Positions 1,153 to 23,332 of a DNA stretch of 25,071 nucleotides are shown piece by piece (within the stretch, counting starts at the first letter, position 1; each line of letters begins with the position of its first letter). The translations under genes were made by a program, and so were the position numbers. The notes below the pieces were generated by a model. It saw only the letters and a list, made by a program, of their open reading frames with translations, ran no database searches and was not told the origin of the DNA. Origin of the DNA: a virus. The stretch lies in the IMG/VR virus record IMGVR_UViG_3300044825_000173, positions 1-25,071 of that record. One strand, 5' to 3'.

Positions 1153-2064
1153 ATGGCTATTTCACGCGCACAACTCCTCAAGGAACTGCTGCCGGGTCTA
1201 AACGCCCTGTTCGGCCTTGAGTACAAGAAGTACGAAAACGAGCATGAGGCGATCTACGAGACCGAAACCTCGGAGCGCTCGTTCGAAGAAGAACTGAAGC
1301 TGTCTGGCTTCGGCACAGCCCCGGTCAAGGCCGAAGGTTCTGCCATCGCCTACGACAACGCTCAGGAAGTCTGGACGGCTCGTTACAACCACGAGACCAT
1401 CGCTATGGGCTTCTCCATCACCGAAGAGGCGATGGAAGACAACCTGTACGACTCGCTGTCCTCGCGTTACACCAAGGCCCTCGCCCGTTCGATGGCCTAC
1501 ACGAAGCAGGTGAAGGCGGCTTATCCGCTTAACAACGGCTTCTCCGGTGGCGCGTTTGTGTCGGGCGACGGCGTGACGCTGTTCAACACAGCCCACCCGC
1601 TCGTGTCTGGTGGCACGAACAGCAACACGCAGGGCACACCGGCTGATCTGAACGAGACCTCGCTTGAGGCCGCCGTTATCCAGATCGCTGGCTGGCGCGA
1701 CGAGCGTGGTCTGCTTATCGCAGCCCGCCCGCGCAAGCTGATTGTTCCGCCGAACCTGATGTTCGTTGCGACCCGCCTGCTGGAGACAGAACTCCGCACG
1801 GCGACCGCCGATAACGACATCAACGCGATCAAGAACAACGGTACGATTCCGGAAGGCTACTCGGTCAACCACTACCTGACCGACACCGACTCGTACTACC
1901 TGATCACGGATGTTCCGAACGGCATGAAGCACTTCGTTCGTACCCCGCTCGCCACCTCGATGGATGGCGACTTTGATACAGGCAACGTCCGCTACAAGAG
2001 CCGTGAGCGTTACAGCTTCGGCGTGTCGGATCCGCTTGGCATCTGGGGCAGCCCGGGCGCTTAA
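1153..2064 (+). CDS. major capsid protein, Mu gpT-like (HK97 fold)
   Basis: A 303-aa protein that would assemble the icosahedral head. It follows the gpT-like major head subunit pattern: an N-terminal helical region with TETSERSFEEELKLSGFG (about 37-54), a middle part with WTARYNHETIAMGFSITEEA (about 75-94, the strand and spine-helix region), the diagnostic DGVTLFNTAHPLVSGG stretch (about 137-152), an IAARPRKLIVPPNL segment (about 193-206), and a C-terminal part ending in SFGVSDPLGIWG. The length is typical of this family. It starts at ATG 1153 after AGGAGA, ends in TAATAG, and is followed by a strong terminator at 2085-2110, as expected for a highly expressed capsid gene. No separate prohead protease or scaffold gene is visible beside it. 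Confidence 0.92.
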   Translation: MAISRAQLLKELLPGLNALFGLEYKKYENEHEAIYETETSERSFEEELKLSGFGTAPVKAEGSAIAYDNAQEVWTARYNHETIAMGFSITEEAMEDNLYDSLSSRYTKALARSMAYTKQVKAAYPLNNGFSGGAFVSGDGVTLFNTAHPLVSGGTNSNTQGTPADLNETSLEAAVIQIAGWRDERGLLIAARPRKLIVPPNLMFVATRLLETELRTATADNDINAIKNNGTIPEGYSVNHYLTDTDSYYLITDVPNGMKHFVRTPLATSMDGDFDTGNVRYKSRERYSFGVSDPLGIWGSPGA

Positions 2065-2084
2065 TAGCGCTACGATAGACTAGG

Positions 2085-2110
2085 AAAGGCCCCCGCTTTG
2101 GGGGCCTTTT
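2085..2110 (+). terminator. intrinsic terminator after the major capsid gene
   Basis: A perfect 10-bp stem, AAAGGCCCCC at 2085-2094 with GGGGGCCTTT at 2100-2109, loop GCTTT, and a T-rich end (TTTT at 2107-2110, then CATTT). It lies 20 nt after the capsid stop and closes the capsid transcription unit. Confidence 0.9.
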
Positions 2111-2116
2111 CATTTG

Positions 2117-2125
2117 TGGTACAAT
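2117..2125 (+). promoter_or_regulatory. candidate extended -10 promoter
   Basis: TGGTACAAT matches the extended -10 form (TGnTATAAT) with one mismatch, and it starts directly downstream of the MCP terminator. No clear -35 box is present 17 nt upstream, where the terminator stem lies. Extended -10 promoters often do without one. The host sigma factor is unknown, so this is a positional and motif-based inference. Confidence 0.35.
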
Positions 2126-2227
2126 TTAGCTATCCCCCGAATGGTGGACCGGGTTCCCCGGCTTCGTGAGACAGTCCCGGCTGACGCTCGCAGAGACTCC
2201 GAAGCTACATCCTGCGAGGATAATCCA
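2126..2227 (+). promoter_or_regulatory. structured 5' leader with interleaved inverted repeats
   Basis: About 100 nt between the MCP terminator/promoter candidate and the ATG at 2228. It contains three inverted repeats: CCGGG 2149-2153 with CCCGG 2157-2161; GCTTCG 2161-2166 with CGAAGC 2200-2205; and CTCGCAG 2187-2193 with CTGCGAG 2212-2218. The second and third interleave, so they form either a pseudoknot or alternative folds. The third stem covers the ribosome binding site (GAGG 2216-2219) of the next gene. Regulation of translation is inferred, and base pairing has not been tested. Confidence 0.4.
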
Positions 2228-2422
2228 ATGGCTAACACAAGCTTCTCCGGCCCCGTCAAGGTGTCCGACACATTCACAGTCGCCACGGTTCCGGATGCTA
2301 CTCTCAGCACCGGCGGCATGATCTACGTGAGCAATGGCCGCAACGGCGCTCCGATCATTGCGTTCTCGAACGGCACGGCTTGGCTGCGCGTCGATACCGC
2401 TGGTGCCATTTCTGCCACGTAA
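2228..2422 (+). CDS. small virion-associated protein, function unknown
   Basis: A 64-aa protein beginning MANTSFSGPVKVSDTF, resembling small proteins beginning MANTSFSGPV in uncultivated aquatic phages where they sit among head genes. A GGMIYVSNGRNGAPIIAFSN segment suggests a small beta-structured domain of the kind used in fibre or decoration proteins. The start ATG 2228 has GAGGA at 2216-2220. A longer frame upstream would run through the structured leader and is not credible. It ends with TAATAG and is followed immediately by a UUCG-loop terminator. A head or tail structural role is inferred from position. Confidence 0.75.
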   Translation: MANTSFSGPVKVSDTFTVATVPDATLSTGGMIYVSNGRNGAPIIAFSNGTAWLRVDTAGAISAT

Positions 2423-2423
2423 T

Positions 2424-2448
2424 AGGTGGGGCTTCGGCCCCGCCTTTT
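2424..2448 (+). terminator. intrinsic terminator with UUCG tetraloop
   Basis: Stem from 2424-2432 with 2437-2445 (9 bp including one G-T pair), capped by a C(TTCG)G tetraloop and followed by TTTT at 2445-2448. It overlaps the second stop codon of the 64-aa gene and ends 16 nt before the next start. It probably reduces but does not abolish transcription into the downstream genes. Confidence 0.85.
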
Positions 2449-2464
2449 AGCTTTGGAGGGCAGA

Positions 2465-2746
2465 ATGGCTCTATATCTCGGTGACGTTAAGTCGAATGTG
2501 GCCACATCCAGCAACGTGGTTGTTGGTGGCCCCGCCCGCGTTCGCGGCATCCATTATCTTGCGAATACAAGCCCCGGCTCTATCGTCGTAAAGGACGGTG
2601 GCTCTGGCGGCACAACTGTTCTTACGGTCGCCACCGCTGCGAATGCGTATGGCAATGTGGTGATTCCGGGTGACGGCATTCTTTGCTCGTCGAACGTGTA
2701 CGCCGCGCTCACGAATGTGGTTTCGGCAACAATCATCTACGGATAA
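2465..2746 (+). CDS. small virion protein, function unknown
   Basis: A 93-aa protein, beta-rich, with many Gly, Val, Thr and Ser residues, and no catalytic motif. A VRGIHYLANTSPGSIVVKDG stretch (about 27-46) is the most distinctive part. The pattern of a jelly-roll-like or Ig-like small decoration protein fits, but this is inference. Start ATG 2465 is preceded by an excellent ribosome binding site GGAGGG (2455-2460). An in-frame GTG at 2426 lies inside the terminator stem and is rejected as the start. The gene belongs with its neighbours to the head region. Confidence 0.75.
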   Translation: MALYLGDVKSNVATSSNVVVGGPARVRGIHYLANTSPGSIVVKDGGSGGTTVLTVATAANAYGNVVIPGDGILCSSNVYAALTNVVSATIIYG

Positions 2747-2754
2747 GGGGCATC

Positions 2755-3534
2755 ATGTCCGAGATCGCCTCCATATCGCGCTACGGCAAGACTGAGCCGT
2801 TTGAGCTTCAGGTTTCTCGCGGTCAGGTCGCTTGGCACCGCCCGGTTATCGTGTTTGGATTCAATGGTGATGTTGACGCCAGCACTGAGACGATCTGGCC
2901 GGGTGGCGGGATTTTGACATATCCATCCGCCGCCATCCAGATGAAAGTAAGCTCCTCGAACGCGAATGACACAGCCGCTGGCACTGGTGCCCGTACTGTT
3001 TACATAGGCGGTCTTGACGCGAACCACAACGAGATCTCTGAGACAGTCACTCTCAGCGGGCAGACCGCTGTTACGACGACAAAATCTTACCTGCATATCA
3101 ACGAGGCGTATGTCACATCTGCGGGCTCTGGCAACTCTGCCGCCGGTTCCATATACATTGGCACCGGCGTTGTTACCGCTGGTGTGCCCGCCACGGTCTA
3201 TGACATCATAGCGTTCGACTACAACAGGCGAGTCACCGGCAGTTATACGATCCCCGCCGGATATACTGGCTATTTGGTTCAGGGGCTGTTCTCAACTGGT
3301 CAGGCTGGTGGCTCAAACGCCGTGACTGGTCGCCTGATGACCAGAGGGGAGAACAACATCCGGCTGACGTTTGCGGTCGTGACCCTCAACAACGGCTCTG
3401 CTGATTATAAGTTTGAGCTTCCTGCCGCAATCCCCGAGAAGACAACCGTTGAAGCTCAGGCGTTTGGCTCCTCGGAAAACAACTCCTGTTCGTCCATGTT
3501 CATCATTCTTCTGGTAAAGAACGACAATGGCTAA
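2755..3534 (+). CDS. putative virion structural protein, beta-sandwich type
   Basis: A 259-aa protein with an N-terminal SRYGKTEPFELQVSRGQVAW motif (about 8-27), then FGFNGDVDASTETIWPGGG (about 34-52), a pattern I associate with structural proteins of marine podovirus-like phages, where it lies downstream of the capsid gene. The remainder is rich in Gly/Thr/Val strands and ends with a hydrophobic SSMFIILLVKND segment, which looks like a final beta strand rather than a membrane helix. The start is ATG 2755, 8 nt after the previous stop. Its last 8 nt overlap the start of the next gene, suggesting translational coupling. The exact position in the particle is unknown. Confidence 0.75.
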   Translation: MSEIASISRYGKTEPFELQVSRGQVAWHRPVIVFGFNGDVDASTETIWPGGGILTYPSAAIQMKVSSSNANDTAAGTGARTVYIGGLDANHNEISETVTLSGQTAVTTTKSYLHINEAYVTSAGSGNSAAGSIYIGTGVVTAGVPATVYDIIAFDYNRRVTGSYTIPAGYTGYLVQGLFSTGQAGGSNAVTGRLMTRGENNIRLTFAVVTLNNGSADYKFELPAAIPEKTTVEAQAFGSSENNSCSSMFIILLVKNDNG

Positions 3535-3775
3535 GACACCAGCTTGGACTCGTAAAGAGGGCAAGAACCCGAAGGGCGGTTTAAACGCCAAGGGTCGCGC
3601 ATCCTACAATCGTGCAAACCCCGGAAAGCCGGGCCTCAAGCCGCCGCAGCCTGAAGGTGGACCCCGTAAGAAGTCCTTCTGCGCCCGCTCTGCTGGCCAG
3701 ATGAAGATGTGGCCCAAGGCCGCGAAGGATCCAAACAGCCGCCTCCGCAAGGCGCGTAGGGCGTGGGACTGCTAA
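3527..3775 (+). CDS. DUF6321-like small basic protein
   Basis: An 82-aa, very basic protein (Lys/Arg-rich) with the family-typical order AWTRKEGKNPKGGLNAKGRA (about 5-24), a Pro/Lys stretch, and KKSFCARSAGQMKMWP (about 48-63), ending in WDC. This matches my memory of DUF6321, common in phages infecting cyanobacteria and other aquatic bacteria. The function is not known. The charge suggests nucleic-acid or virion contact. It overlaps the preceding gene by 8 nt and the following gene by 1 nt (TAATG), so it is translated as part of a coupled run. Confidence 0.8.
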   Translation: MAKTPAWTRKEGKNPKGGLNAKGRASYNRANPGKPGLKPPQPEGGPRKKSFCARSAGQMKMWPKAAKDPNSRLRKARRAWDC

Positions 3776-4146
3776 TGGGCCGCACCAACGAAGCATTGTG
3801 GGCAAAAGCCAAGGCCGAAGCAAAGGCCAAGATGGGCGGCAAACACTCCGCCCGGGCGATGCAGTTGGCTGGCAAGATCTACAAGGATCGTGGCGGCGGT
3901 TACACGGGGCCGAAGACAAAGGCCCAGAAGTCCATGACGAAGTGGACGAAGGAAGAATGGGGCACGAAGAGCGGAAAGCCATCTGGCAAGACCGGAGAGC
4001 GTTACCTGCCGAAGAAGGCCCGAGAAGCCCTGTCGCCTGCGGAATATGCGGCGACAACCCGAGCAAAGCGTGCCGGGACAAAAGCTGGAAAGCAGTTCGT
4101 CGCCCAGCCGAAGAGAATCGCCAAGAAGACGGCAAGGTTCAGGTGA
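3775..4146 (+). CDS. DUF5872-like basic protein
   Basis: A 123-aa protein, strongly basic throughout. The N-terminal third is a Lys/Ala-rich helix (AKAKAEAKAKMGGKHSARA). The second half has the signature KWTKEEWGTKSGKPS, GERYLPKKAREALSPAEYAA and TTRAKRAG, then KQFVAQPKRIAKKTARFR at the C-terminus, which I recognise as the DUF5872 pattern found in phages and some giant viruses. No enzyme motif is known to me. The start ATG 3775 overlaps the previous stop (TAATG). An in-frame GTG at 3763 inside the previous gene is less likely. It pairs with the DUF6321-like gene as a small basic doublet. Confidence 0.82.
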   Translation: MGRTNEALWAKAKAEAKAKMGGKHSARAMQLAGKIYKDRGGGYTGPKTKAQKSMTKWTKEEWGTKSGKPSGKTGERYLPKKAREALSPAEYAATTRAKRAGTKAGKQFVAQPKRIAKKTARFR

Positions 4147-4151
4147 CGGAA

Positions 4152-4370
4152 ATGGATACAAAAGTCGAAATTTCGGTTGCCCGTATGGAAGTGCAGGTAG
4201 AGCGTCTTGAGAAAGACGTAGCAGAAGTAAAGGATGACGTGAAGGCGATCCGTGCCACATTGGATAAGGCAAGCGGTGGCTGGAAGGTCTTAATGATGGT
4301 TGGCGGGGCTTCTGCCGCCATCGCAGCGTTCGTAACAAAGATCTTAGCATCATGGCCATTCGCAAAGTAA
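4152..4370 (+). CDS. coiled-coil plus single-TM protein, holin-like / XhlA-like
   Basis: A 72-aa protein. Residues about 4-40 form a heptad-type coiled coil (VEISVARMEVQVERLEKDV and onwards). Residues about 46-66 form one hydrophobic membrane span (VLMMVGGASAAIAAFVTKIL), and the C-terminus is short. This is the layout of XhlA-type and similar small phage lysis-accessory proteins. Placement at the head of the endolysin/holin block supports a membrane role in lysis. It starts at ATG 4152, 5 nt after the previous stop, and overlaps the next gene by 19 nt. The ribosome binding site is weak. Whether it is a holin, antiholin or accessory protein cannot be told from sequence. Confidence 0.72.
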   Translation: MDTKVEISVARMEVQVERLEKDVAEVKDDVKAIRATLDKASGGWKVLMMVGGASAAIAAFVTKILASWPFAK

Positions 4371-4753
4371 TTTCTCTCGTTGTCGCTGCCCTCTTTCTGA
4401 TTTCAACCCCGGCACTCGCTAATCAGTGCGTCACGATTGATCAGTTCCACTACACGCTGATGTCTCAAGGCATCAAGTCGTATGGCTCCAAGTCTGCCGC
4501 GACAGGCAAGATGGAGAAGCTGATCAACAGCAACCGCACGAAGGCTGGCAAGGATACGATTGATGCCTCCATTGTTCTTGCGGCATACGGACAGGATCAG
4601 AAGGGGCAGATCATTGTTATCGTCGCGGTCGTGGATCAGAATGGCTGCATTATCGAGGACACGTTCACGACGCTGACGGCGGATATGTGGCTTTCCTTTC
4701 TGGGGTCTTCCGGGGTCGAGCTTGAGGACTTCATTCCGATTGATGGTGCATGA
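4352..4753 (+). CDS. secreted protein with signal peptide, function unknown
   Basis: A 133-aa protein with a clear Sec signal peptide: basic MAIRK, a hydrophobic core VISLVVAALFLIST, and a likely cleavage after PALA (about residue 23). The mature part of about 110 residues contains two Cys (about positions 25 and 94), with an IVIVAVVDQNGCIIEDTF segment that looks like strands. It lies between a coiled-coil/TM protein and the endolysin, so a periplasmic role in lysis or superinfection control is possible, but no known domain was recognised. Its stop overlaps the endolysin start (ATGA). Confidence 0.75.
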   Translation: MAIRKVISLVVAALFLISTPALANQCVTIDQFHYTLMSQGIKSYGSKSAATGKMEKLINSNRTKAGKDTIDASIVLAAYGQDQKGQIIVIVAVVDQNGCIIEDTFTTLTADMWLSFLGSSGVELEDFIPIDGA

Positions 4754-5163
4754 TGCAGTTCAGCAGAACATCGCTCAGTAAGCTGAAGGGTGTCCACCCT
4801 GATCTGGTGCGTGTCGTCATGCGCTGCGCCAAGGACTGGAAGGACAAGCAGTTCACATTCGGCATCACATGCGGTGTGCGAACGCTTGAGGAGCAGAAGA
4901 TTCTCGTCAAGAAGGGTGCCTCGAAGACACTTCGTAGTCGGCACATTCCGGCGCAGAATGGTTACAGCCACGCGGTGGACGTGGTTGCGTTTATTGACGG
5001 GGCTGTTCGCTGGGATTGGCCCCTGTATGGTAAGATTGCTACGGCAATGAAATCTGCCGCAAAGGCGGAGAAAGTGCCGATTGAATGGGGCGGGGATTGG
5101 GTTTCGTTTAAAGACGGGCCTCACTACCAGCTTCCGTGGAAAACATACCCGGGAAAGAAATGA
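4750..5163 (+). CDS. endolysin, M15 (VanY/D-Ala-D-Ala carboxypeptidase-like) peptidase
   Basis: A 137-aa zinc peptidase predicted to cleave the peptide part of peptidoglycan (L-Ala-D-Glu or D-Ala linkages), releasing progeny. The M15 zinc signature is visible: SRH at 63-65, then SHAVD at 73-77 with H65 and D77 as probable ligands, a WGGDW motif at 113-117, and DGPHYQL at 122-128 with H125 as the third ligand. FGITCGVRTLEEQ (38-50) is the typical lead-in. The spacing between H65 and D77 is longer than in the compact SxHxxGxAxD form. There is no signal peptide, so export depends on a holin. The size matches single-domain endolysins. It starts at ATG 4750 (overlap ATGA), with a second ATG at 4753 possible. 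Confidence 0.93.
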   Translation: MMQFSRTSLSKLKGVHPDLVRVVMRCAKDWKDKQFTFGITCGVRTLEEQKILVKKGASKTLRSRHIPAQNGYSHAVDVVAFIDGAVRWDWPLYGKIATAMKSAAKAEKVPIEWGGDWVSFKDGPHYQLPWKTYPGKK

Positions 5164-5340: not shown

Positions 5341-5570
5341 ATTGGCTAGAGATTGCCGCCGTCGTCGTGCTGCTTGTCGGCCTCGGCGCTGGCGGCTTTC
5401 TCGTTGTCCAACGTCCGTCATTTTGGTTGGGCATTTTCTCTGCGGCACTCACAGGCCTCCTGCCGCACATCACAAAGCGCATGACGCCGGAGCAGGAAAA
5501 GGCGCTTCAGGAGTGTCATCGCCGTGGTGGCAATTGGGATCATTTCAGGAAGAAGTGCAGGTATAAGTGA
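5337..5570 (+). CDS. small membrane protein in the lysis cassette
   Basis: A 77-aa protein, starting at GTG 5337 (GTGA overlap with the holin-like gene). The N-terminal span (about residues 5-25, IAAVVVLLVGLGAGGFLVV) is followed by a second moderately hydrophobic stretch (about 30-44), and then a charged cytoplasmic or periplasmic tail with MTPEQEKALQECHRRGGNWD. Candidates are a spanin-like, antiholin or second holin component. The short tail lacks the long coiled coil of a typical Rz inner-membrane spanin. Function is inferred from position only. Confidence 0.65.
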   Translation: MNWLEIAAVVVLLVGLGAGGFLVVQRPSFWLGIFSAALTGLLPHITKRMTPEQEKALQECHRRGGNWDHFRKKCRYK

Positions 5571-5767
5571 TGGCGATGTCTCGCAGCAACATGGGCAAGC
5601 AGGTTGCCCGTCCGGCCAAGGTAAAGAAGGTCATGAGCGAGTTCAAGTCGGGCTCGCTCAAGTCTAGCTCTGGCCAGAAGGTAACGAACCCGAAGCAGGC
5701 TGTTGCTATCGCGCTCAGCGAGGCTCGTCGCCAGCGCCGCCCTCGGCGTCCCAAGAGGATGAAATGA
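5570..5767 (+). CDS. DUF6496-like small basic protein
   Basis: A 65-aa protein with KVKKVMSEFKSGSLKSSSGQ followed by KVTNPKQAVAIALSEARRQ, matching the pattern of DUF6496 (KVMxEFKxGxLxSGSGKKV, then KQAIAIALSEA), found in many phages and bacteria. The C-terminus is Arg/Lys-rich. The function is not established. The start ATG 5570 overlaps the previous stop (TGATG), and ATG 5576 is an alternative. The last 4 nt overlap the next gene (ATGA), and the sequence AAGAGGATGAA just before supplies its ribosome binding site. Confidence 0.85.
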   Translation: MAMSRSNMGKQVARPAKVKKVMSEFKSGSLKSSSGQKVTNPKQAVAIALSEARRQRRPRRPKRMK

Positions 5768-7968
5768 GCAAGAAGAAGAAAGTCACAGCGCCTCTTTCCT
5801 ACGACCCCGGAAAGGGCCGCCCAAAGGAATATCTTGCCTATCTGAACTGGCAGGAGATGCAGGCGCTACAGCGTTTAAATGGCGGCAATATGGAGCGCGG
5901 TCCTATGGGGCTGCCTTCCTTCCCGCCTGACTGGCGTGGGAATCCGAACAGCACTGGCAACTGGTCTGGGGCAGGTGGAACATCACCGGGCGGCACTCAG
6001 GGCGGTGGCTCTGACAGCGGCAGCCGAGGGAGCGAGTCGGCCTCCTCTGCTTCTGATTCGGCAGATGCAGCCAATGCAGCAGAGTCTCAGCAGCAGTCCT
6101 CCGATACGGCAGCCCAGCAGGAGGCTGCCAATAAAAATGCTGCGGAAGCGGCGAAGACGTCTGCGTTTGCCGAGGATGCCCGTAAGGCTGGCATTGGCTC
6201 GCTTAATGTTGGCCCCATGCAGACGCCGGTCAAGATTGGTGGCGGTGCTATTTCGCAGGCTGTCTCAAGCGCCACAGCACCAACAAGTGTACCGTCTGGC
6301 TTTATGACGCCACAGCAGCAGATGGCTGATCGCATGAACACCATGTACAGCCCTAACGCCCTGAAGGGTCTTTACAGCGGGACAAACGCATTTGGCATTT
6401 CGGATCCGGAAAAGCGATCAAAAATTCAAGAGTCTCTTCTCGGTCAAACCATCGAGCTTTCTCGCATGGGCAAGAGTGTTGGCTACACTGCTGCACCTAA
6501 GATTGCGACATCCGGTTACGTGGACCCCTTGAAGTCTGGGGTTGTTACTCATTGGACGGGAACACCGCAAGGCCAACGGATCGCTGCGCTTGGCACTCGG
6601 AAGGGTTATGGATATGGTGTTGCCATTGACCCCGCTGGCAACATCGCATACACGAAGCAATTCAACAAGGAGGGTGATTACCCACAAACCTTCCATGCAA
6701 AGGGCTACAATACCGGCACCGTTGGTGTTGCGACTGTTGGGCTGGGAGAGCCAAACCCCTCTCAAGTGGCATCCGCTCGCGCTCTGGGGAAAGAATGGTT
6801 CAACCCCGACGCAAGCGTAACCTCACATGGTTATCTCGCTGGTGATATTGCTGCCCAGCGCCGTGCCGCTGGTGAAAAATTTGAGGGCAGAATGACGCGA
6901 GAGGGCAAAGCTATTGCTTCTGCATTCTCTGGGGGTCTGTCTGACATCACAACTCCGTCTTTTGCTGGAGCATCTCCCATCAGCGGACCACCAACGACAA
7001 ACGCTGTTGTGTCACCTGCTTCGATGAGAATTCAGCAGGTCGAGAATCAGTACAATCCGGCGACGACCCCGCAAGTTGTAACAGAGACTTCAAAGCTGAC
7101 TTATGACAGGCTTCGCAGCACACCTGATGGAGTCACCACAGAAGCAAGCCCGGAGGAAGTAGAATCTCTCGACCCTGCAAATCGTGCTGGATTTGAAAAC
7201 GCCCAGCAGATGCAGCAATATTCGCCCAAAAGGGGGACGGTCAAGCAGCCGACACCTGAAGAGCAGAAAAGACTCGACATGCAGAATCAGTGGCAGGGTC
7301 TTGATCTTGGGCCTCAAAATTACGACACAGACCAAGAGACGCTCGATAGGCTTGCTAGTGTTTACGAGGGTGCCGGTATCGGGCCTAAAATGGTTCAGAG
7401 GGACGATTATGTAATCGGAGACGAGGCGCAGACGTATCCGAAATACGTTACACCCGAGACACAGCAGATCGTTGAGGATCAGGAGAGGATCAATAGGCGG
7501 GGTGTTGGCGTAATTAAACGCGGTATGCCGTTCTTTGGTGGCATTGTGTCTGGAATCGAGAGGCTCCAAGAGGTGTTTACGGACAAGGACATTCCCGATT
7601 ACGCAACAGACCAGAAGTACAAGTATATGCAGGCCTCTCCGGAAGAGCAGGCTGCTATGCGTGAGAAGTACCCCGACATCAGAAGGTTCGCGGTTTCCAT
7701 TGGTGACATTCCGCCAAATACCGGGACACAGTACGCGGGTGGCTATCCTAGGAAGGAGCTTGGAGGCAAGTCTGATCCGTATTCGAAGACGAGCAGCCGC
7801 ACAAGCTACTCGCCGTCCGGTGGTCCGGTTTCGGCAGCAAGCGATACTGGCCGTTCCCAGCAGTACTACCTCTGGGATCTCGGGATCGGAATTCCATCTC
7901 CGGGCGAGCCGGAATATAATGATTACCAGAGATACCTCAGAGAACGCGGGGCCTCTGCGGAGGTGTAA
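5764..7968 (+). CDS. large protein with candidate internal Amidase_2-like domain
   Basis: A 734-aa multidomain protein. Residues about 17-56 (GRPKEYLAYLNWQEMQALQR, then ERGPMGLPSFPPDW) form a conserved-looking start. About 57-130 is a Ser/Gly/Ala/Gln-rich linker. About 255-365 follows the Amidase_2 (AmpD/T7 lysozyme type) order: VVTHWTG with H263, a GYGYGVAIDPAGN strand with Y284, FHAKGYNTGTVGVATVG with H311, PSQVASARAL, then VTSHGYLAGD with H355 and D361. That would be an N-acetylmuramoyl-L-alanine amidase cutting peptidoglycan. The long C-terminal part ends in YYLWDLGIGIPSPGEPEY. It may be a virion-borne hydrolase or a late scaffold-like protein. The third zinc ligand is uncertain. It follows the lysis cassette (ATGA overlap) and precedes the adaptor genes. 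Confidence 0.7.
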   Translation: MSKKKKVTAPLSYDPGKGRPKEYLAYLNWQEMQALQRLNGGNMERGPMGLPSFPPDWRGNPNSTGNWSGAGGTSPGGTQGGGSDSGSRGSESASSASDSADAANAAESQQQSSDTAAQQEAANKNAAEAAKTSAFAEDARKAGIGSLNVGPMQTPVKIGGGAISQAVSSATAPTSVPSGFMTPQQQMADRMNTMYSPNALKGLYSGTNAFGISDPEKRSKIQESLLGQTIELSRMGKSVGYTAAPKIATSGYVDPLKSGVVTHWTGTPQGQRIAALGTRKGYGYGVAIDPAGNIAYTKQFNKEGDYPQTFHAKGYNTGTVGVATVGLGEPNPSQVASARALGKEWFNPDASVTSHGYLAGDIAAQRRAAGEKFEGRMTREGKAIASAFSGGLSDITTPSFAGASPISGPPTTNAVVSPASMRIQQVENQYNPATTPQVVTETSKLTYDRLRSTPDGVTTEASPEEVESLDPANRAGFENAQQMQQYSPKRGTVKQPTPEEQKRLDMQNQWQGLDLGPQNYDTDQETLDRLASVYEGAGIGPKMVQRDDYVIGDEAQTYPKYVTPETQQIVEDQERINRRGVGVIKRGMPFFGGIVSGIERLQEVFTDKDIPDYATDQKYKYMQASPEEQAAMREKYPDIRRFAVSIGDIPPNTGTQYAGGYPRKELGGKSDPYSKTSSRTSYSPSGGPVSAASDTGRSQQYYLWDLGIGIPSPGEPEYNDYQRYLRERGASAEV

Positions 7969-8199: not shown

Positions 8200-8901
8200 A
8201 TGGCAACGAGCGGAACAACAACTTGGAACCCCGACATCGGGGAATTGGTCGAGGAAGCCTACGAGAGGGCTGGCCTCGAATTGCGTTCGGGCTACGATCT
8301 GAAGACGGCTCGCCGGAGTCTGAACTTCCTTCTCGCTGAGTGGGCCAACAAAGGTTTAAACCTCTGGACTGTGCATTCCGGCACACTAACTCTGGTGCCG
8401 GGTCAGAAGACCTATACGTCCGCTGACGGCCTTCCCGCCGACGCTATCGACTACATCGAGCATGTGTGCCGCACGACCACAGCGGGCATCGCTACAGACA
8501 TCTCCCTAAACCGGATCTCGGTGTCCACATACGCGAACATTCCGACGAAGGATCAGGGCGGTCGCCCCTACCAGATCTATGTGAACCGCGCCACAAATTC
8601 GCCGCAGATCACGCTCTGGCCGGTTCCCGACTCTAGCGCCACATACACGCTCGCGTACTGGTACTTGAAGCGCATGGACGACGCGACAAACCCCGTCAGC
8701 CAGACAATTGAGATCCCTTTCCGGTTCTACAATGCTCTCGTGGCAGGCCTTTCCTATCATATCGCGCTCAAGAAGCCGGAGGCTGCGGAGCGTGTTTCCA
8801 TGCTCAAAGACCTGTACGACGAGGCATTCCAGCTTGCTGCGGACGAGGACCGTGATCGGTCCAGCGACCGATTCGTGCCATTCCTTGGCTACGATTTCTA
8901 G
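8200..8901 (+). CDS. head-tail adaptor candidate (P22 gp4-like)
   Basis: A 233-aa protein with an N-terminal helical start NPDIGELVEEAYERAGLELR (about 10-29), then TARRSLNFLLAEWANKGLNLW (about 36-56), followed by a beta-rich centre and a C-terminal helical region (about 180-225). This arrangement is typical of head-completion/adaptor proteins that sit beneath the portal in podovirus-like particles, such as P22 gp4-like proteins. It would form a dodecameric ring joining portal to tail nozzle. The start is ATG 8200, after the structured gap. It is one of two adaptor candidates in this window (the other begins at 11804). Confidence 0.8.
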   Translation: MATSGTTTWNPDIGELVEEAYERAGLELRSGYDLKTARRSLNFLLAEWANKGLNLWTVHSGTLTLVPGQKTYTSADGLPADAIDYIEHVCRTTTAGIATDISLNRISVSTYANIPTKDQGGRPYQIYVNRATNSPQITLWPVPDSSATYTLAYWYLKRMDDATNPVSQTIEIPFRFYNALVAGLSYHIALKKPEAAERVSMLKDLYDEAFQLAADEDRDRSSDRFVPFLGYDF

Positions 8902-8913
8902 GGTATAATCAGG

Positions 8914-9270
8914 ATGTCAGTCCCATACGCAAGAGGTAGGCTGGCCTTTGGTTTCTGCGATACGTGCGGACAGAGGTACGACCTCCACGATCTGAAGGTC
9001 CAGATTGTCGCCGGTCGTGCAACGAACATCAAGAATTGCATGTACTGCCTCGACAAGGACCATCCCCAGTACTTTGTTGGCCGCGTTCCTGTAAACGATC
9101 CGCAGGCGCTTCTGAATCCCCGGCCAGATACCGCTCAGGTTGAAAGCCGCGAACTTTGGGGTTGGAACCCCGTAGGAAACAACGCCGTTTACGGAACCGG
9201 ACAGGTTGGCGTTATCGGCATTTACCTCAACGGGGTGCCGAGCCCCATTACCTATTCTGGAGAACTGTAA
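8914..9270 (+). CDS. small zinc-ribbon phage protein
   Basis: A 118-aa protein. Two CxxC knuckles, FCDTCGQRYDLHDLK (C15, C18) and NCMYCLDKDHP (C42, C45), make a treble-clef or ribbon-type zinc site. The flanking RYDLHDLKVQIVAGR and a later SRELWGWNPVGNNAVYG segment match a protein type commonly seen next to adaptor genes in podovirus-like phages. The role is unknown, perhaps structural in the head-tail joint or nucleic-acid binding. The start is ATG 8914 with TAGGG at 8899-8903. The stop overlaps the next start (TAATG). A TATAAT string at 8904-8909 lies in this short gap. Confidence 0.75.
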   Translation: MSVPYARGRLAFGFCDTCGQRYDLHDLKVQIVAGRATNIKNCMYCLDKDHPQYFVGRVPVNDPQALLNPRPDTAQVESRELWGWNPVGNNAVYGTGQVGVIGIYLNGVPSPITYSGEL

Positions 9271-9776
9271 TGAAGAAGAAGTCTCACAAGCGCATGCAGA
9301 TGGGCGGCATGGCCAAGATGGACGACGCCGCCGGTCGCGCCATGATGAAGGATCTCCGTGGCTCTCGCGGTGCGCCTATGCCAATGAAGTCAATGACCCC
9401 GAAGGACCGCGCCTCAATGATGCAGGGCCTTATCGGTGGACGCGGCGCTCCTGTTGTCAAGAAAGCCCCCATCATGACAACAACAGCACCAGTCGCCAAT
9501 ACGGCTGTAATTTCCGGCGCTCCAACTTCTGGGATCGCCCCAGTATCGACAACGACACTGCCGATTGCTGGGCGTGGTGCAGCGGCTCCCGGCAACACGG
9601 ATGCCATGAAGGCCTCTCTCATGACTGGCATGAAGAAGGGCGGCGCTGTCAAGTCCAAGAAGATGCGTGGCGGTGGTCTCGCCCGTAAAGGTGTCGGCAT
9701 GGCTCTCGCCAAGGGTGGAATGGTTCGCGGAGCCGGTTGTGCAAAGCGCGGCGTTAAGAAGGCTAAGACCTACTAA
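9270..9776 (+). CDS. low-complexity protein with Gly/Arg C-terminal motif (family member 1)
   Basis: A 168-aa protein rich in Met, Ala, Gly and Lys, with a Thr/Ala/Pro-rich middle (about 60-120). It has no membrane helix or catalytic motif. The C-terminus carries MRGGGLARKGVGMALAKGG (about 132-150) followed by MVRGAGCAKRG, a motif repeated in the next genes of this cluster. The start is ATG 9270 (TAATG overlap) and the stop at 9776 overlaps the following start the same way. Comparable Gly/Arg C-terminal motifs occur in uncultivated aquatic phage proteins, but no function is known to me. A structural or nucleic-acid-contact role is speculation. Confidence 0.7.
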   Translation: MKKKSHKRMQMGGMAKMDDAAGRAMMKDLRGSRGAPMPMKSMTPKDRASMMQGLIGGRGAPVVKKAPIMTTTAPVANTAVISGAPTSGIAPVSTTTLPIAGRGAAAPGNTDAMKASLMTGMKKGGAVKSKKMRGGGLARKGVGMALAKGGMVRGAGCAKRGVKKAKTY

Positions 9777-10942
9777 TGACACGGTACGCAAGGACAAACA
9801 CCAAGGCTGCACCGGCAAACACTACTAAGGTCAAGCCAGCCCCAACAAAGGCTGGTGCCGCGCCTGTGAAGTCGTCGGCAAAGGCACCCGTGAAGCCGTC
9901 TGTACCTCCTTCGAAGACTAGAGCGAGGCCGGGATTGACAGAGAAGCCTAAGGCAACACAGGTTTCGTCTAAGCCCATTCAGGCGAAAGGTGGTGCCGCC
10001 CAGAATAAAGCCGCTCCGGCTCCCGTTAAGACCGCCAAGGCTCCCGTTAAGACCGCTCCGGCTAAAACCAAGGTTGCCACAACATCTGCGCCCAAAGCTA
10101 GTTCTGCCCCTGCAAAGCAGGCTAAGAATGAAACCAAGGCAGAAAAGAAAACCCAGAATCAGGTAGCTGGGAAGGGACAGGGCAACCAAGGGGCCTCCGG
10201 TAAGGGCGGCAAAAATTTTGGCAGCGGCGGTGGCAATCGTGGTGATGGCAATCGCGGCAATGATGTCCGTGGCGGCGGCAATCGTGGCGGTGGCCGTGGC
10301 GGTGGTGGCCGTGGCGGTGGTGGTCAGGGTGGCAACAACTCCAATCGACCAGCACAACCAGTAATGCCCGTAGCTCCCAAGCCCGGGCCAGTCGCCCCCC
10401 TTCCTGTTGGCGCTCCCGCTCCCGTCGCGGCCCCGCCAAGACCAAACCAAAGCGGACCCATTGCGGCTGGTCCGATTGCAAATCAAGGAGTCCTTCCTTC
10501 GGCACCCGCTCCATATTCGCCGACTAGCGGTGGCGGGATTGGTGCAATTGCGCCACCCACTCCCGCCGCTCCGGTTCCCGCCGCTCCGGTGGCTCCGGCG
10601 GCTCCAAGGCCCGCTCCGGCTCCTGCTGCTCCGGTGGCTCCGGCGGCTCCAAGGCCCGCTCCGGCTCTTGCTGCTCCGGCTCCTGCTGCTCCGGCTCCAA
10701 AACCTGCCGGATTGAGGACGCTCAGCGCGGAGGAAAGCCAAACAGCAGCCCGGCGTGGTAAAACTCCATTGGGGATGCGTGGCGGCGGTCTTGCACAAAA
10801 GGGTTTTGGCTCGGCGATGCGCGGTAGCGTAAACAATGCGAAGCCGACTTCTTCTTCGCGGCCCCAGTCAATGAAGCCCTCAAGCGGTTCTCGCGGAATG
10901 GGCGCTGCAACTCGCGGCTTTGGTCGCGGAAGGATGGTATAA
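9776..10942 (+). CDS. Lys/Ala-, RGG- and Pro/Ala-rich low-complexity protein (family member 2)
   Basis: A 388-aa protein, almost wholly low complexity. Residues 1-130 resemble a histone H1-like Lys/Ala/Pro tail with repeated APVKTA units. Residues 131-186 form a Gly/Arg RGG-box region (GGNRGGGRGGGGRGGGGQGG). Residues 191-312 are Pro/Ala-rich with a 15-residue tandem repeat APVAPAAPRPAPAPA (about 271-300). The end carries MRGGGLAQKGFGSAMRG (334-350) and GFGRGRMV. The first two regions look suited to nucleic-acid binding. The Pro/Ala part could be an extended spacer. The frame is intact with normal phage-like junctions, so it is very likely real despite its composition. Function is unknown. Confidence 0.7.
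   Translation: MTRYARTNTKAAPANTTKVKPAPTKAGAAPVKSSAKAPVKPSVPPSKTRARPGLTEKPKATQVSSKPIQAKGGAAQNKAAPAPVKTAKAPVKTAPAKTKVATTSAPKASSAPAKQAKNETKAEKKTQNQVAGKGQGNQGASGKGGKNFGSGGGNRGDGNRGNDVRGGGNRGGGRGGGGRGGGGQGGNNSNRPAQPVMPVAPKPGPVAPLPVGAPAPVAAPPRPNQSGPIAAGPIANQGVLPSAPAPYSPTSGGGIGAIAPPTPAAPVPAAPVAPAAPRPAPAPAAPVAPAAPRPAPALAAPAPAAPAPKPAGLRTLSAEESQTAARRGKTPLGMRGGGLAQKGFGSAMRGSVNNAKPTSSSRPQSMKPSSGSRGMGAATRGFGRGRMV
10583..10672 (+). repeat. tandem repeat, two copies of 45 nt
   Basis: Near-identical 45-nt units at 10583-10627 and 10628-10672 inside the low-complexity gene. They encode two copies of a 15-residue Pro/Ala unit differing at one residue (PAPA versus PALA). A third, degenerate partial copy follows to about 10710. 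The near-identity at DNA level suggests a recent duplication. Confidence 0.85.
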
Positions 10943-10943
10943 A

Positions 10944-11339
10944 ATGGCATACGATAGATCTGGACGTGCCCCGGACGGCTCCCTCGATCCAAAGAGGTTG
11001 TTTATCGCAAAAATCATGCATATGGCGAATATTGGCGGTGGCGGGGGATCAATTGATCTGAGGAAGAGGGCCGATGACCTATACCAGACCATGGTCACAG
11101 GCGAGTCTCACGGCGGCTGGAAGATCAAGGGTGCCAAGGGCAAGGAAAGCGAAGAAGACGTTAAGGTTGACCCCGGTAAAAAGATCAAGGATACGGATGT
11201 TGACTTCGGCATGAGACGCCGTTCCGCAAACCTTTCGGATGTGTATCGTCCGAAGGTGACTCCAACAATGAAGGAAGGCGGTCTTGTCCGTGGTGCCGGT
11301 TGTGCGCAGCGCGGTCGCGGTCGCGGAAAGATGGTATAA
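10944..11339 (+). CDS. small phage protein with Gly/Arg C-terminal motif (family member 3)
   Basis: A 131-aa protein. The first half (MAYDRSGRAPDGSLDPKRLF, then IAKIMHMANIGGGGGSIDLR) has a predicted helical part. The middle is Lys/Asp/Glu-rich. The last 23 residues are the family motif MKEGGLVRGAGCAQRGRGRG followed by KMV, closely similar to the end of the gene at 9270 (VRGAGCAKRG). The start ATG 10944 has GGAAGGA at 10928-10934 as ribosome binding site, supplied by the codons for the previous protein's C-terminus. Its own end forms the same type of junction with the next gene. No function is recognised. Confidence 0.75.
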   Translation: MAYDRSGRAPDGSLDPKRLFIAKIMHMANIGGGGGSIDLRKRADDLYQTMVTGESHGGWKIKGAKGKESEEDVKVDPGKKIKDTDVDFGMRRRSANLSDVYRPKVTPTMKEGGLVRGAGCAQRGRGRGKMV

Positions 11340-11340
11340 G

Positions 11341-11637
11341 ATGAAGTACACATACAAGAAGATGGCAAACGGTGGCCGCGTCGATAAGGACAAGGGCTAC
11401 ACCGCCAAGGAGCGAAAGGAACTCAAGAGCCTCATCGAAGAGTTCGGCGACAAGTATTCCAAGGACGTGACGGGCAGTAGTTCTGTGACGTTCGAGAAGA
11501 AGAAAAAGGCCCCGCCGAAGAAGATGGCTCGTGGTGGCATCGTTGGCAAGCCTGCCCGCTCTGCCCGCGACATGAGGGCTGGTGCCGGTAGCGGTGTTGG
11601 CCGTATCCAGAAGACAAAGATCCAGAGGGGGCGTTAA
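11341..11637 (+). CDS. small basic phage protein (Gly/Arg family member 4)
   Basis: A 98-aa protein, Lys/Arg-rich. The N-terminus has MKYTYKKMANGGRVDKDKGY. A helical KERKELKSLIEEFGDKYSKD segment (about 23-42) follows, then a Lys/Pro spacer (EKKKKAPPKK), then MARGGIVGKPARSARDMRAG and GVGRIQKTKIQRGR. The MARGGIV segment is a shortened form of the shared Gly/Arg motif. It starts at ATG 11341, one nt after the previous stop. Its own last nt is the first nt of the next start (TAATG). Function unknown. Confidence 0.75.
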   Translation: MKYTYKKMANGGRVDKDKGYTAKERKELKSLIEEFGDKYSKDVTGSSSVTFEKKKKAPPKKMARGGIVGKPARSARDMRAGAGSGVGRIQKTKIQRGR

Positions 11638-11804
11638 TGGCCAAGCAGAATGCACGACTCAAGCTTCCGTCTGATGCCACCGTTGAGAACGGCATGCGGC
11701 GTGGTGTAAACGTCGGTAACATGAAAATGCTCAAGAAGCCCATGAAGATGCGTGGCGGCGGTGCTGCTACGAGGGGCCTCAAGATCTCGGAGAAGCAGGG
11801 CTAA
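11637..11804 (+). CDS. 55-aa basic protein with MRGGGAATRGLK motif (family member 5)
   Basis: A short frame, ATG 11637 (TAATG overlap, with AGAGGGGGCG as ribosome binding site) to TAA 11802-11804. The 55-aa product ends MRGGGAATRGLKISEKQG, a motif often seen at the C-terminus of small phage proteins in uncultivated aquatic phages, and related to the MRGGGLA motif of its upstream neighbours. The ATGCGTGGCGG stretch at 11748 is shared at DNA level with 9663 and 10775. The TAA overlaps the start of the second adaptor gene. Function unknown. Confidence 0.7.
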   Translation: MAKQNARLKLPSDATVENGMRRGVNVGNMKMLKKPMKMRGGGAATRGLKISEKQG

Positions 11805-12448
11805 TGTCCTTCACGTATGCACAACTTGTAGATGCGATCCACGGCTACCTTCAGGTAGACTCGAATGGTATTTCGACTGACGATATGAACACGATCATTC
11901 GTCAGGCGGAACAGCGTATCTACTACGATGTGCAGATCCCCGTTCTCAAGAAGAACGTGACGGGTAACCTGTCGGCGAATAATCGTTACCTGACGACGCC
12001 GACAGATTACCTTTCGACATATTCCATCGCCGTCAACAACAACGGCAACTACGAGTATCTGCTTCCGAAAGAAGTTGCATTCCTGCGCGAGGCATATCCG
12101 TCCACAACGGCGACGGGTGTGCCGCGCTACTATGCGATCTTCGACAACGATACATTTCTGATTGCCCCGCCGCCGAATGCAAACTACGAGGTCGAGCTTC
12201 ATTACTTCTATGAGCCGCCGTCCATCGTAGATCAGCCTTCCGGCACGTGGCTTAGTGAAAATGCAGAGAACGCCCTTCTTTACGGGTGTCTGTTCGAGGC
12301 GTATACGTATCTCAAGGGCGAGCAGGATCTCATCGGTCTTTATGCCGGGAAGTACAAGGAGTCGTTGCAGGCTCTCCGGATCATCGGTGAGGGTCGCAAT
12401 CGTTCCGACACGTATCGCAATTCTGAACCCCGGATCACACCGAACTGA
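11804..12448 (+). CDS. phage adaptor protein (head-tail joining)
   Basis: A 214-aa protein with AQLVDAIHGYLQVD at the start (about 6-19), then IIRQAEQRIYYDVQIPVLKK (about 31-50), LSANNRYLTTPTDYL (about 56-70), EYLLPKEVAFLREAYP (about 84-99) and ATGVPRYYAIFDNDTFLIAP. This is the pattern I know from phage adaptor proteins of the SU10 type in podovirus-like phages. The C-terminal WLSENAENALLYGCLFEAYT is helical, as expected for a ring-forming joining protein. It would sit between portal and nozzle. The start overlaps the previous stop (TAATG) and its own stop overlaps the next start (TGATG). Confidence 0.85.
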   Translation: MSFTYAQLVDAIHGYLQVDSNGISTDDMNTIIRQAEQRIYYDVQIPVLKKNVTGNLSANNRYLTTPTDYLSTYSIAVNNNGNYEYLLPKEVAFLREAYPSTTATGVPRYYAIFDNDTFLIAPPPNANYEVELHYFYEPPSIVDQPSGTWLSENAENALLYGCLFEAYTYLKGEQDLIGLYAGKYKESLQALRIIGEGRNRSDTYRNSEPRITPN

Positions 12449-18654: not shown

Positions 18655-20850
18655 ATGCTCTCCAAGCTTAAATTCCAGCCCGGCATCAACCGAGACATGA
18701 CCAGCTACACAAACAGTGGTGGCTGGTTTGACTCGGATTTTGTGCGGTTCAGAAACGGTCTGCCGGAAAAGATTGGTGGCTGGACGAAGATCTATGCTAA
18801 CCAAACCGCGCTTATTGGTAGGTGCCGTAAGCTGTTTAGCTGGTCGAGCTTGGTCGGCAACGAATATCTAGCCTGCCCGACTAACATCAAGTTTTATGTC
18901 GATGATTCGTCACAGATCATCGACATAACACCACTTCGCCGTTCAGTCACACTTGGATCGAACCCGATAGCAACCTCTAACGGATCGAGTGACATAACGA
19001 TCACTGACGTGAATCACGGAGCCATAAGCGGCGATTACATCACCATTTCTGGCGCAGCCAATACGAATGGCATTCTGGCTACCGACATCAACAAGGAATT
19101 TGTAATCCAGAGCGTTGCAAACGCAAACGCCTACAGCGTCACCACCGCTGGCACGGCGACGTCAACTGGATCAGGTGGCGGTTCGAATGTATCGGTACAG
19201 TACGAATTTCATCCCGGCACGGCCACAACTGCCGCATTCACTGGCTGGGGCTCTGGCCCGTGGGGCGGCATTTCTGGCTTGTATGGCTGGGGCTTCGGTC
19301 CTTCCACAACGCTCACCACTTACTATAGTGGCCTCTGGACCGTAGACAACTACGGCGAAGACATGATTGCGTGTCCCCGCGATCTGACGAATTTCTACAC
19401 GCTGGGCAATACGCCGATCTCCGTCACGAACGGCAGCAACGTCGTTACTGTCACGCAGGTTAATCACGGCTTCTCGAATGGCAACGCCGTTATTATTGGC
19501 GGTATCGACACCACCCTCGGCGGCATTTCTACGCTTGACCTGAACGGTACGCACACAATCAGTGTCGTAAACGCAAACGCCTACACGTTCACTGTGACTA
19601 GCGCAGCATCTTCCAGCGAAACTGGTGGCACTGGTTGTGAAGTTTACACGTCCTCAATCATTTACTGGGACATCACGAACGCCAGCGGTCCTGCTGTCAG
19701 CCTTAGCAACCTTGGCTCGATTTACGCGAAGAAATACCTGCCGTATGTGGCGACTGAAGTTCTCGTATCTGACCAGAACAGGCAGGTCATTGCGTTCGGA
19801 TGTAACCCATACGACGTTACGCAGGGTCAGGATAAAATGACCATCAGATGGTCAGATTCCAACGATCCAACGAATTGGGATGCCGCAGATCTGACAACGA
19901 CATCTGGGGACAATCGCCTGTCTTCGGGGTCTTACATCGTAACCGCCGTTCAGAACCGCGAAGAGATCATCGTCTGGACCGACACGGCACTCTACAGCAT
20001 GACATACATTGGCCCGCCCTATGGCTACGGCTTCAACTATGTCGGCTCCAGCTTCGACATCATTGGTCCGAATGCTAAGATCGTCGCAGGCTCTGCGGCC
20101 TTCTGGATGGGCTCTAACAACTTCTATGCGTACAGCGGCAAGATCGAGCCGCTTCCCTGCACAGTCAGAGACTACGTGTTCCTTGATCTCGACACCAGCA
20201 ACGGCGACAAGGTGTATTGTTCTGCCGACTCCGGCAACAACGAGATCATCTGGTTCTACCCATCGAAGAGCCAGTCAACGAGCGGCGGTGTTTCACCCGC
20301 TAACGTCGAGGTTGATCGTTACGTCGTATACAACTACCAAGACAATGCTTGGTACTACGGCACACTGGCCAGAACAGCTTGGATCGACCGCAGCGGAAAT
20401 AGCACACCCCGTGCCGTCAGTGCAGATGGGTATCTGTACCAGCACGAGGTTGGCTTCAACGACGGCAGCACAAACCCCGAAAGCCCGATCAACGCCTATA
20501 TTCAGTCGAGCCCCGTCGAAATTGGGGACGGCGATAAATTCATGTTCGTGAACAGGATCATCCCAGATCTTACGTTCCGGAACTCGACAATGGTCAATGG
20601 TAACGGCGAGCCGATTGTAAAATTCACGATACGCCCGCAAGATTATCCGGGCGGTGCCATTGGTGCGGGCGACGAGAGAGATGTACAGCGCAATGCCGCA
20701 GCGACTCTAAAGGTAAACAGGTTCACTGATCAGATGTTTACACGCATCAGGGCTCGCTCTGTCGCGCTCAGGGTTGAGAGCGACGAGCTTAACGTGGCGT
20801 GGCGTCTGGGAACCCCGCGAATTGACATGCGAGAGGACGGTCGGAGATGA
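18655..20850 (+). CDS. tail nozzle protein (P22 gp10 / T7 gp12-like)
   Basis: A 731-aa protein with a typical opening FQPGINRDMTSYTNSGGWFD (about 7-26) and VRFRNGLPEKIGGWTKI (about 30-46), a beta-propeller-like body (DRYVVYNYQDNAWYYGTLAR) and a conserved end SVALRVESDELNVAWRLGTP (about 702-721), the layout of the packaged-DNA stabilisation/nozzle proteins of P22-like and related phages. It would plug the end of the tail channel. Two inserted copies of a small beta domain are present (about 103-179 and 252-329), each with a VNHG(A/F) motif and VxNANAY. A Trp/Gly-rich loop (GWGSGPWGGISGLYGWGFGP) is found near 198-217. Start ATG 18655, after TAGGG. Its stop overlaps the next start. Confidence 0.9.
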   Translation: MLSKLKFQPGINRDMTSYTNSGGWFDSDFVRFRNGLPEKIGGWTKIYANQTALIGRCRKLFSWSSLVGNEYLACPTNIKFYVDDSSQIIDITPLRRSVTLGSNPIATSNGSSDITITDVNHGAISGDYITISGAANTNGILATDINKEFVIQSVANANAYSVTTAGTATSTGSGGGSNVSVQYEFHPGTATTAAFTGWGSGPWGGISGLYGWGFGPSTTLTTYYSGLWTVDNYGEDMIACPRDLTNFYTLGNTPISVTNGSNVVTVTQVNHGFSNGNAVIIGGIDTTLGGISTLDLNGTHTISVVNANAYTFTVTSAASSSETGGTGCEVYTSSIIYWDITNASGPAVSLSNLGSIYAKKYLPYVATEVLVSDQNRQVIAFGCNPYDVTQGQDKMTIRWSDSNDPTNWDAADLTTTSGDNRLSSGSYIVTAVQNREEIIVWTDTALYSMTYIGPPYGYGFNYVGSSFDIIGPNAKIVAGSAAFWMGSNNFYAYSGKIEPLPCTVRDYVFLDLDTSNGDKVYCSADSGNNEIIWFYPSKSQSTSGGVSPANVEVDRYVVYNYQDNAWYYGTLARTAWIDRSGNSTPRAVSADGYLYQHEVGFNDGSTNPESPINAYIQSSPVEIGDGDKFMFVNRIIPDLTFRNSTMVNGNGEPIVKFTIRPQDYPGGAIGAGDERDVQRNAAATLKVNRFTDQMFTRIRARSVALRVESDELNVAWRLGTPRIDMREDGRR

Positions 20851-21104
20851 CATCTTCAACGACGGCGTTACCGCTTCCGCCGAAGGAATACAATCAGGAG
20901 TACATGAACCGCCTGATTAAGCAGTTGGACTTCGCAATAAGAAAGCTTCAGTCCATTCGCCCGATCACTGTTGGGTCAGATCTTAGCAGTCAGATCGCGG
21001 CATTCCCCATCTCGGGGTTGACAATCCAAGACATTCCAACCTCCCCCACAGGGCTTCCGGCAGGCAGCGTTTGGTCTGACTCCGGCATCCTCAAGATCGT
21101 GTGA
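20847..21104 (+). CDS. small conserved phage protein downstream of the nozzle
   Basis: An 85-aa protein. The N-terminal half has a helix, EYNQEYMNRLIKQLDFAIRK (about 14-33). The C-terminal third holds PTSPTGLPAGSVWSDSGILK, a pattern that recurs in the small protein following gp10-like nozzle genes in many uncultivated phages, by memory. It may be a trimeric needle-like or capping component, but nothing proves this. It overlaps the nozzle gene by 4 nt (ATGA), so stoichiometric co-translation is likely. Confidence 0.75.
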   Translation: MTSSTTALPLPPKEYNQEYMNRLIKQLDFAIRKLQSIRPITVGSDLSSQIAAFPISGLTIQDIPTSPTGLPAGSVWSDSGILKIV

Positions 21105-21109
21105 GAACC

Positions 21110-21835: not shown

Positions 21836-21840
21836 ACAAC

Positions 21841-23331: not shown

Positions 23332-23332
23332 C

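Follow-up and report, generated by a model that had tools for sequence, protein, structure and literature searches.

Why should consecutive phage genes with unrelated bodies encode proteins that end in one and the same Gly/Arg-rich signature? This question is raised by five small genes (P1–P5) in the 25-kb linear IMG/VR virus record IMGVR_UViG_3300044825_000173 (positions 1 to 25,071; the whole of this stretch is referred to as the window), which represents the late region of a short-tailed phage. A first-pass annotation of this DNA had proposed that all five proteins share a C-terminal motif and that such a tail would suit a common partner, e.g. as a packaging tag, a nucleic-acid anchor, or a processing site. 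As judged from sequence comparisons, the motif is a common, position-fixed, and modular tag that is under protein-level selection, is attached to unrelated bodies, and is confined to the head module. These properties suggest that it is probably, although far from certainly, a C-terminal signal for loading cargo proteins into the virion.

The tag core and the genes that carry it

The five genes start with ATG codons at 9270, 9776, 10944, 11341, and 11637, as first annotated. They sit exactly between two adaptor genes and are preceded by one small gene (8914). The carriers share a nine-residue core, R-G-x-G-x-A-x-[RK]-G, in which R, G, G, A, and G are invariant, and the last core is located 7–8 residues before the stop codon in P1 (9270), P2 (9776), P3 (10944), and P5 (11637). 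The assignment of one C-terminal motif to all five genes therefore holds for four of them; the product of the gene at 11341 (P4) has another conserved tail instead. The features of the cassette are as follows.

8200..8901, plus strand: adaptor 1 (SU10_adaptor), left border of the cassette; Pfam PF24175, E = 5.8e-14
9270..9776, plus strand: P1, open reading frame (ORF), tagged, hypervariable body, 168 amino acids, net charge +28
9666..9692, plus strand: internal core copy of P1, RGGGLARKG
9726..9752, plus strand: C-terminal core of P1, RGAGCAKRG, stop 7 residues later; tag profile E = 9.3e-7
9776..10942, plus strand: P2, ORF, tagged, Ala/Pro/Gly-rich, 388 amino acids, net charge +50
10778..10804, plus strand: internal core copy of P2, RGGGLAQKG
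10892..10918, plus strand: C-terminal core of P2, RGMGAATRG, stop 7 residues later; tag profile E = 1.8e-9
10944..11339, plus strand: P3, ORF, tagged, 131 amino acids, net charge +10
11289..11315, plus strand: C-terminal core of P3, RGAGCAQRG, stop 7 residues later; tag profile E = 2.1e-11
11341..11637, plus strand: P4, core absent, second tail type, 98 amino acids, net charge +18; alignment of 12 relatives
11533..11634, plus strand: second tail of P4, GGIVxxPARSxxDMxAGAGSGVGRxQKTKIxRGR, the last 34 residues
11637..11804, plus strand: P5, conserved tagged protein, 55 amino acids
11751..11777, plus strand: C-terminal core of P5, RGGGAATRG, stop 8 residues later; tag profile E = 2.3e-12
11804..12448, plus strand: adaptor 2 (SU10_adaptor), right border of the cassette; Pfam PF24175, E = 1e-26

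In total, six core copies are present in the window, i.e. two each in P1 and P2 and one each in P3 and P5. When all 33 window proteins were shuffled 2,000 times, the mean number of cores was 0.007, and six were never reached. The sequences MRGGGLARKG and MRGGGLAQKG, previously taken for the ends of P1 and P2, are internal copies; the actual ends, RGAGCAKRGVKKAKTY in P1 and RGMGAATRGFGRGRMV in P2, match more closely than had been described. A conserved Cys had also been reported, but the corresponding core position 5 is mostly Ala among 178 unique tails (A in 111, L in 16, K in 14, and C in 12).

The net charges of P1–P5 range from +10 to +50. Pfam and PHROG searches gave no match for P1, P3, and P5 and weak sub-threshold matches only for P2 and P4, and a tblastn search of cultured phages with P3 gave no match. 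P4 and P5, folded alone by AlphaFold from shallow alignments, are predicted to be disordered, with predicted local distance difference test scores of 57 and 55, respectively. An end that is conserved yet disordered has the appearance of a short docking motif.

Fixed position and distribution of the tag

Relatives were fetched first by adaptor homology alone, the tag not being a criterion, and the last core is located 6–8 residues from the stop in 87 of 117 ORFs of this set. A DNA pattern scan of IMG/VR, in which the position was left free, placed the core 5–8 residues from the stop in 122 of 136 ORFs among the matches listed; these position counts are not independent, since many contigs are near-duplicates. 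A third scan added the C-terminal form KPRGVGAALRGYGKALK. At least 102 dereplicated tagged proteins of 45–832 amino acids were identified in IMG/VR (one, at locus L118, is a chance hit), and their bodies form 58–82 clusters depending on masking.

The same pattern emerged from a motif-free test of 12,642 within-contig gene pairs: similar 28-residue segments on an unrelated remainder were found 33 times at the C-terminal end, once at the N-terminal end, and once in mid-protein, and the control with shuffled ends gave three. Random glycine-rich proteins are not matched as often as phage proteins: a 29-position tag profile found none of the 177,635 PDB sequences at E ≤ 10. The profile finds 19 of the 23 virus records searched, with window copies down to E = 2.3e-12; most of these records were fetched via their tags, and the fraction therefore reflects sensitivity, not prevalence. 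In 84,980 cellular genomes, the strict tag pattern occurred twice by chance, on neither occasion as a C-terminal tag, whereas 88 of the viral loci match it. Several matches of the first IMG/VR pattern scan (L089, L090, L092, and others) were rejected as chance hits at random positions of unrelated contigs, as were matches of a 34-residue tag query to cyanophage terminases (E ≥ 3, internal, not C-terminal). A search of cultured phages with a conserved 67-residue tagged protein gave no match. No description of the tag was found in the open literature, a scope that most subscription papers lie outside.

The fixed position bears directly on the possibility that the tag is an RG/RGG-type nucleic-acid anchor on DNA-condensing proteins. 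The tag is Arg/Gly-rich and basic and the bodies are lysine-rich, as such an anchor would lead one to expect. RGG boxes, however, are repeated and are not bound to a distance from the stop, whereas the nine-residue core of this tag, in which five positions are invariant, is placed 5–8 residues from the end of unrelated bodies. The fixed core and its fixed distance from the stop do not fit the variable spacing and terminus-free placement of RGG/RG boxes, and DNA binding could be achieved by the lysine-rich bodies alone. The anchor function suggested in the first-pass annotation is thus rather unlikely.

Variable bodies and protein-level selection

The same tags are present in 49 relatives whose adaptors are 85–89% identical (medians) to those of the window; adaptor 1 is covered in 39 of these 49 close loci, with a median identity of 88.8%. 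The bodies behave differently from one another. That of P1 was found in none of the 49 relatives, that of P2 was covered to at least 70% in only three (26% identity), and that of P3 was found in one (L004), whereas P5 is present in 46, with a median identity of 91.8%. Tagged bodies are basic, with a median charge of +0.15 per residue versus −0.02 for other genes, and are positively charged in 94% versus 36% of cases.

Body swaps upstream of a conserved 3′ end would also occur if the tag DNA were a recombination seam for body exchange and its protein sequence incidental. Between paralogous tags of one genome, however, codon identity at the invariant residues is 0.348, compared with 0.296 expected from codon usage. 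Synonymous sites are thus nearly random, which argues for selection on the protein and not on the DNA. By this codon test, a seam is largely ruled out, and we consider it exceedingly improbable.

Gene context

Among the 102 dereplicated tagged genes, 100 adjoin marker genes (terminase, portal, GroES, capsid, adaptor, and nozzle genes). They occupy three slots of the head module, namely between terminase and portal, between portal and GroES, and between both adaptors, and their neighbours match the terminase, SU10 portal, SU10 adaptor, capsid, and GroES families. The slot label 'adaptor2-adaptor1' probably results from cross-hits, as the two adaptors are related. In marine contigs, many tagged genes also adjoin a gene for a protein of PHROG 3704 ('ferredoxin / PurM'), exemplified by a 215-residue protein (L159, 3364-4008, minus strand) that is ∼70–74% identical to the cyanophage copies. 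This neighbour is an auxiliary gene that cyanophages also carry, and it provided no functional lead.

All three slots touch portal or adaptor genes, and P5 is very conserved, both of which would be expected if the tag docked small neck proteins outside the portal/adaptor ring, i.e. if the tagged proteins were parts of the connector and not internal cargo. We regard this as unlikely, although conceivable. Proteins that have unrelated bodies and whose lysine-rich disordered chains can reach several hundred residues would be ill suited as neck parts; a genome encodes several tagged proteins with different bodies, and these bodies vary freely, whereas neck proteins do not.

Tagged proteins of cultured phages and other terminal tags

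The Pelagibacter phage HTVC023P carries the tag on two proteins with unrelated bodies.

HTVC023P gp32: directly after the portal, 245 amino acids, ending in GIRGVGAAIRGHKFIGVK
HTVC023P gp51: 127 amino acids, ending in YSRGGGAAVRGMGFKGVF

In 5,000 shuffling trials, two cores were never reached. The end of gp30, encoded between terminase and portal, is a degenerate form of the tag. One body is tagged in one phage and not in others: gp51 of HTVC023P has the tag, whereas its counterparts in HTVC027P, 023Pt_psg01, and HTVC106P, which share the first 36–41 residues, are untagged, and the PHROG for the gp51 body spans residues 1–46 only. In the cultured phage DSL-LC04, the core (GRGMGCATRGGG) is located N-terminally in a 75-residue protein encoded directly before an adaptor gene (L088, 1315-1542, minus strand).

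A fixed C-terminal motif could also be a cleavage or degradation signal for a phage or host protease, and cleavage at Gly-rich sites takes place in other systems. However, none of the HTVC023P head-module proteins scanned matched a prohead protease family (the portal region is not in the window), a cut would free only ∼15 residues, and P1 and P2 carry second, internal copies. The processing site put forward earlier is accordingly very improbable.

Other terminal segments are shared in a similar manner. In another branch, ENYNDQVKRKFGGGKL ends two unrelated proteins of one genome, and a pattern scan for this end found eight contigs, four of which have two copies. In the relatives CRP-901/902, the N-terminal segment MANPVKGAIGQLGExVI is common to proteins encoded between portal and GroES; in CRP-902 four proteins have it, a PBECR5 nuclease and a GNAT enzyme among them. 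In Roseobacter phages, this segment may serve as an N-terminal loading signal. The loci are as follows.

L057, 8306-8599 and 9650-9997: ends in ENYNDQVKRKFGGGKL
L063, 8459-8752 and 9803-9997: ends in ENYNDQVKRKFGGGKL
L349 (CRP-902), 24155-29406, minus strand: shared N-terminus
L086 (CRP-901), 1224-4932: shared N-terminus

The tail of P4 is nearly invariant across 12 relatives, and the sequence upstream of it has been replaced in three of them (L019, L020, and L040). Possible cousins of its end (GRxQKTKIxRGR) in other phages are the C-terminal sequences GQGRVIRSKKTRIC, KKKTKIY, and SKRxxTKI[YF]V (L088, 7313-7657 and 7667-7918; L138, 6571-6738; L158, 3173-3361). Such KTKI-type tails may constitute a second tag family.

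A related signature had also been assigned to the late proteins at 21110, 21841, and 23333, but these lack the core and are acidic, with net charges of −6, −8, and −14, respectively. The gene at 21110-21835 is located downstream of the nozzle gene, where SU10 encodes ejection proteins, and its product contains a stretch (DGG, GEYVIPAWAVATLGDGS, and GAKVLDAM, in this order) that is also found in the tape-measure protein of Caulobacter phage GB2A and near the end of HTVC027P gp82.

The host phage and other genes of the window

The remaining assigned genes of the window are as follows.

1153: capsid protein, matching Phage_capsid_4 and Mu-like gpT
4750: M15 endolysin
5173: Pam3-type holin
14603: tail fibre
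18655: nozzle, with Pfam/PHROG and PDB nozzle matches

With its SU10-type adaptors, a nozzle, and a capsid protein of HTVC023P's family, the window phage is an SU10-adaptor podovirus of the HTVC023P/DSL-LC04 supergroup; its adaptor is 37% identical to that of HTVC027P. A 734-residue protein (5764-7968) has a body identity of ∼29% among close relatives, and its last ∼35 residues (beginning YYLWDLGIGIPSPGEPEYNDYQRYL) are still recognizable; it is possibly another variable body with a fixed C-terminal end. Three more small basic proteins from families of unknown function (DUF6321, DUF5872-like, and DUF6496), encoded at 3527-4146 and 5567-5767, have conserved counterparts in relatives and are untagged.

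Proposed role of the tag

If the tag is a loading signal, the cassette between the adaptors would encode basic, largely disordered cargoes with rapidly changing bodies. The motif (R-G-x-G-x-A-x-[RK]-G plus 5–8 residues) would dock on one common partner in head assembly, and different cargoes would thereby enter the procapsid and later exit with the DNA. The likeliest partner would be a presumed scaffold, namely the acidic coiled-coil protein whose gene lies between those for GroES and the capsid protein, followed by the portal or an adaptor. The presumed scaffold gene at this position encodes an acidic-headed, coiled-coil-like protein (PHROG 28737), and the N-termini of the presumed scaffolds carry a charge of −12 to −15 within 60 residues. 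In HTVC023P, gp37 is the presumed scaffold. The alternating small residues (G, G, and A) of the core suggest docking as an added beta-strand. We infer that the tagged proteins are present in the particle, bind such a partner, and are injected, with roles in DNA charge balance, counter-defence, or take-over. The shared tail with a common partner, as initially envisaged in the form of a packaging tag, is thus partly supported, in that position, modularity, gene context, and hypervariable bodies agree with it.

Several points weigh against a loading signal. Particle proteomes were found for none of the tagged phages, which leaves the tagged products as putative virion proteins; the binding partner is a candidate, and beta-strand docking is guesswork from residue spacing. 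A recognized effector domain was found in none of the tagged bodies, and the effector domains that were found occur only on the CRP-902 proteins, whose tag is another one. P5 varies too little for a rapidly evolving effector and may have a structural role. In addition, the known capsid targeting signals of phages (T4 and P1 DarB) are N-terminal.

A loading signal would allow the proteins carried into the host by an uncultivated phage to be predicted from the sequence alone and would provide a handle for packaging reporter proteins. Among tailed phages, it would be, as far as we know, the first head-loading signal that is C-terminal and serves several cargoes. HTVC023P, which is cultured on a SAR11 strain (Ca. 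Pelagibacter HTCC1062), makes the idea directly testable. More tentatively, and with less than even confidence, we raise the possibility of an undescribed and widespread head cargo-loading code, in which lineages of SU10-adaptor podoviruses would use their own terminal tags, namely C-terminal RGxGxAxRG, C-terminal ENYNDQVKRKFGGGKL, N-terminal MANPVKGAxGxxG, and perhaps KTKI-type tails, for interchangeable injected proteins. The small basic genes of these head modules are nearly all annotated as 'hypothetical', and under such a code the sequence alone could suffice to list the proteins that uncultivated phages of marine and fresh waters inject.

Comparison with known systems

The internal proteins of T4 are diverse and fast-evolving, with lysine contacts to DNA, and only their targeting sequence, which takes them into the scaffolding core, is conserved (PMC3012670). 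Like the T4 targeting sequence, the tag is a short signal common to otherwise unrelated proteins of one genome; unlike it (N-terminal, PMC9024508), the tag is located 5–8 residues before the stop and is unrelated in sequence. In phage P1, up to 30 N-terminal residues of DarB direct a reporter into the head, and its authors found no consensus common to the other Dar proteins (PMC9024508), whereas the tag of the window is C-terminal and one consensus serves many proteins. In P22, the scaffold is required for the entry of the ejection proteins into the procapsid (PMC4992974). SU10 shares with the window phage the adaptor family and has internal head proteins (PMC9509320), but its ejection proteins gp20–24 are encoded after the nozzle gene gp17, and their positional counterparts in the window (20847-24844) are without the tag. 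PBECR proteins encoded among virion genes have been predicted to be packaged and injected (PMC5512222); unlike these polyvalent/PBECR effectors, the window proteins are short and have no effector domain.

The cargo loading peptides of encapsulins are short and typically C-terminal and dock various cargoes inside an HK97-type shell, with cargo and shell genes adjacent (PMC7355545). The tag is likewise a short C-terminal peptide on different cargoes, encoded near genes for an HK97-type shell (Phage_capsid_4 and Mu-like gpT), although the encapsulin is not a virus, its peptide is unrelated in sequence, and that peptide binds a hydrophobic luminal pocket, whereas the tag is Gly/Arg-rich and basic. 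From the parallels with T4 and P22, together with the shared N-terminus of CRP-901/902 and the ENYNDQVKRKFGGGKL ends, we infer a head-loading tag whose sequence differs between lineages although its task does not.

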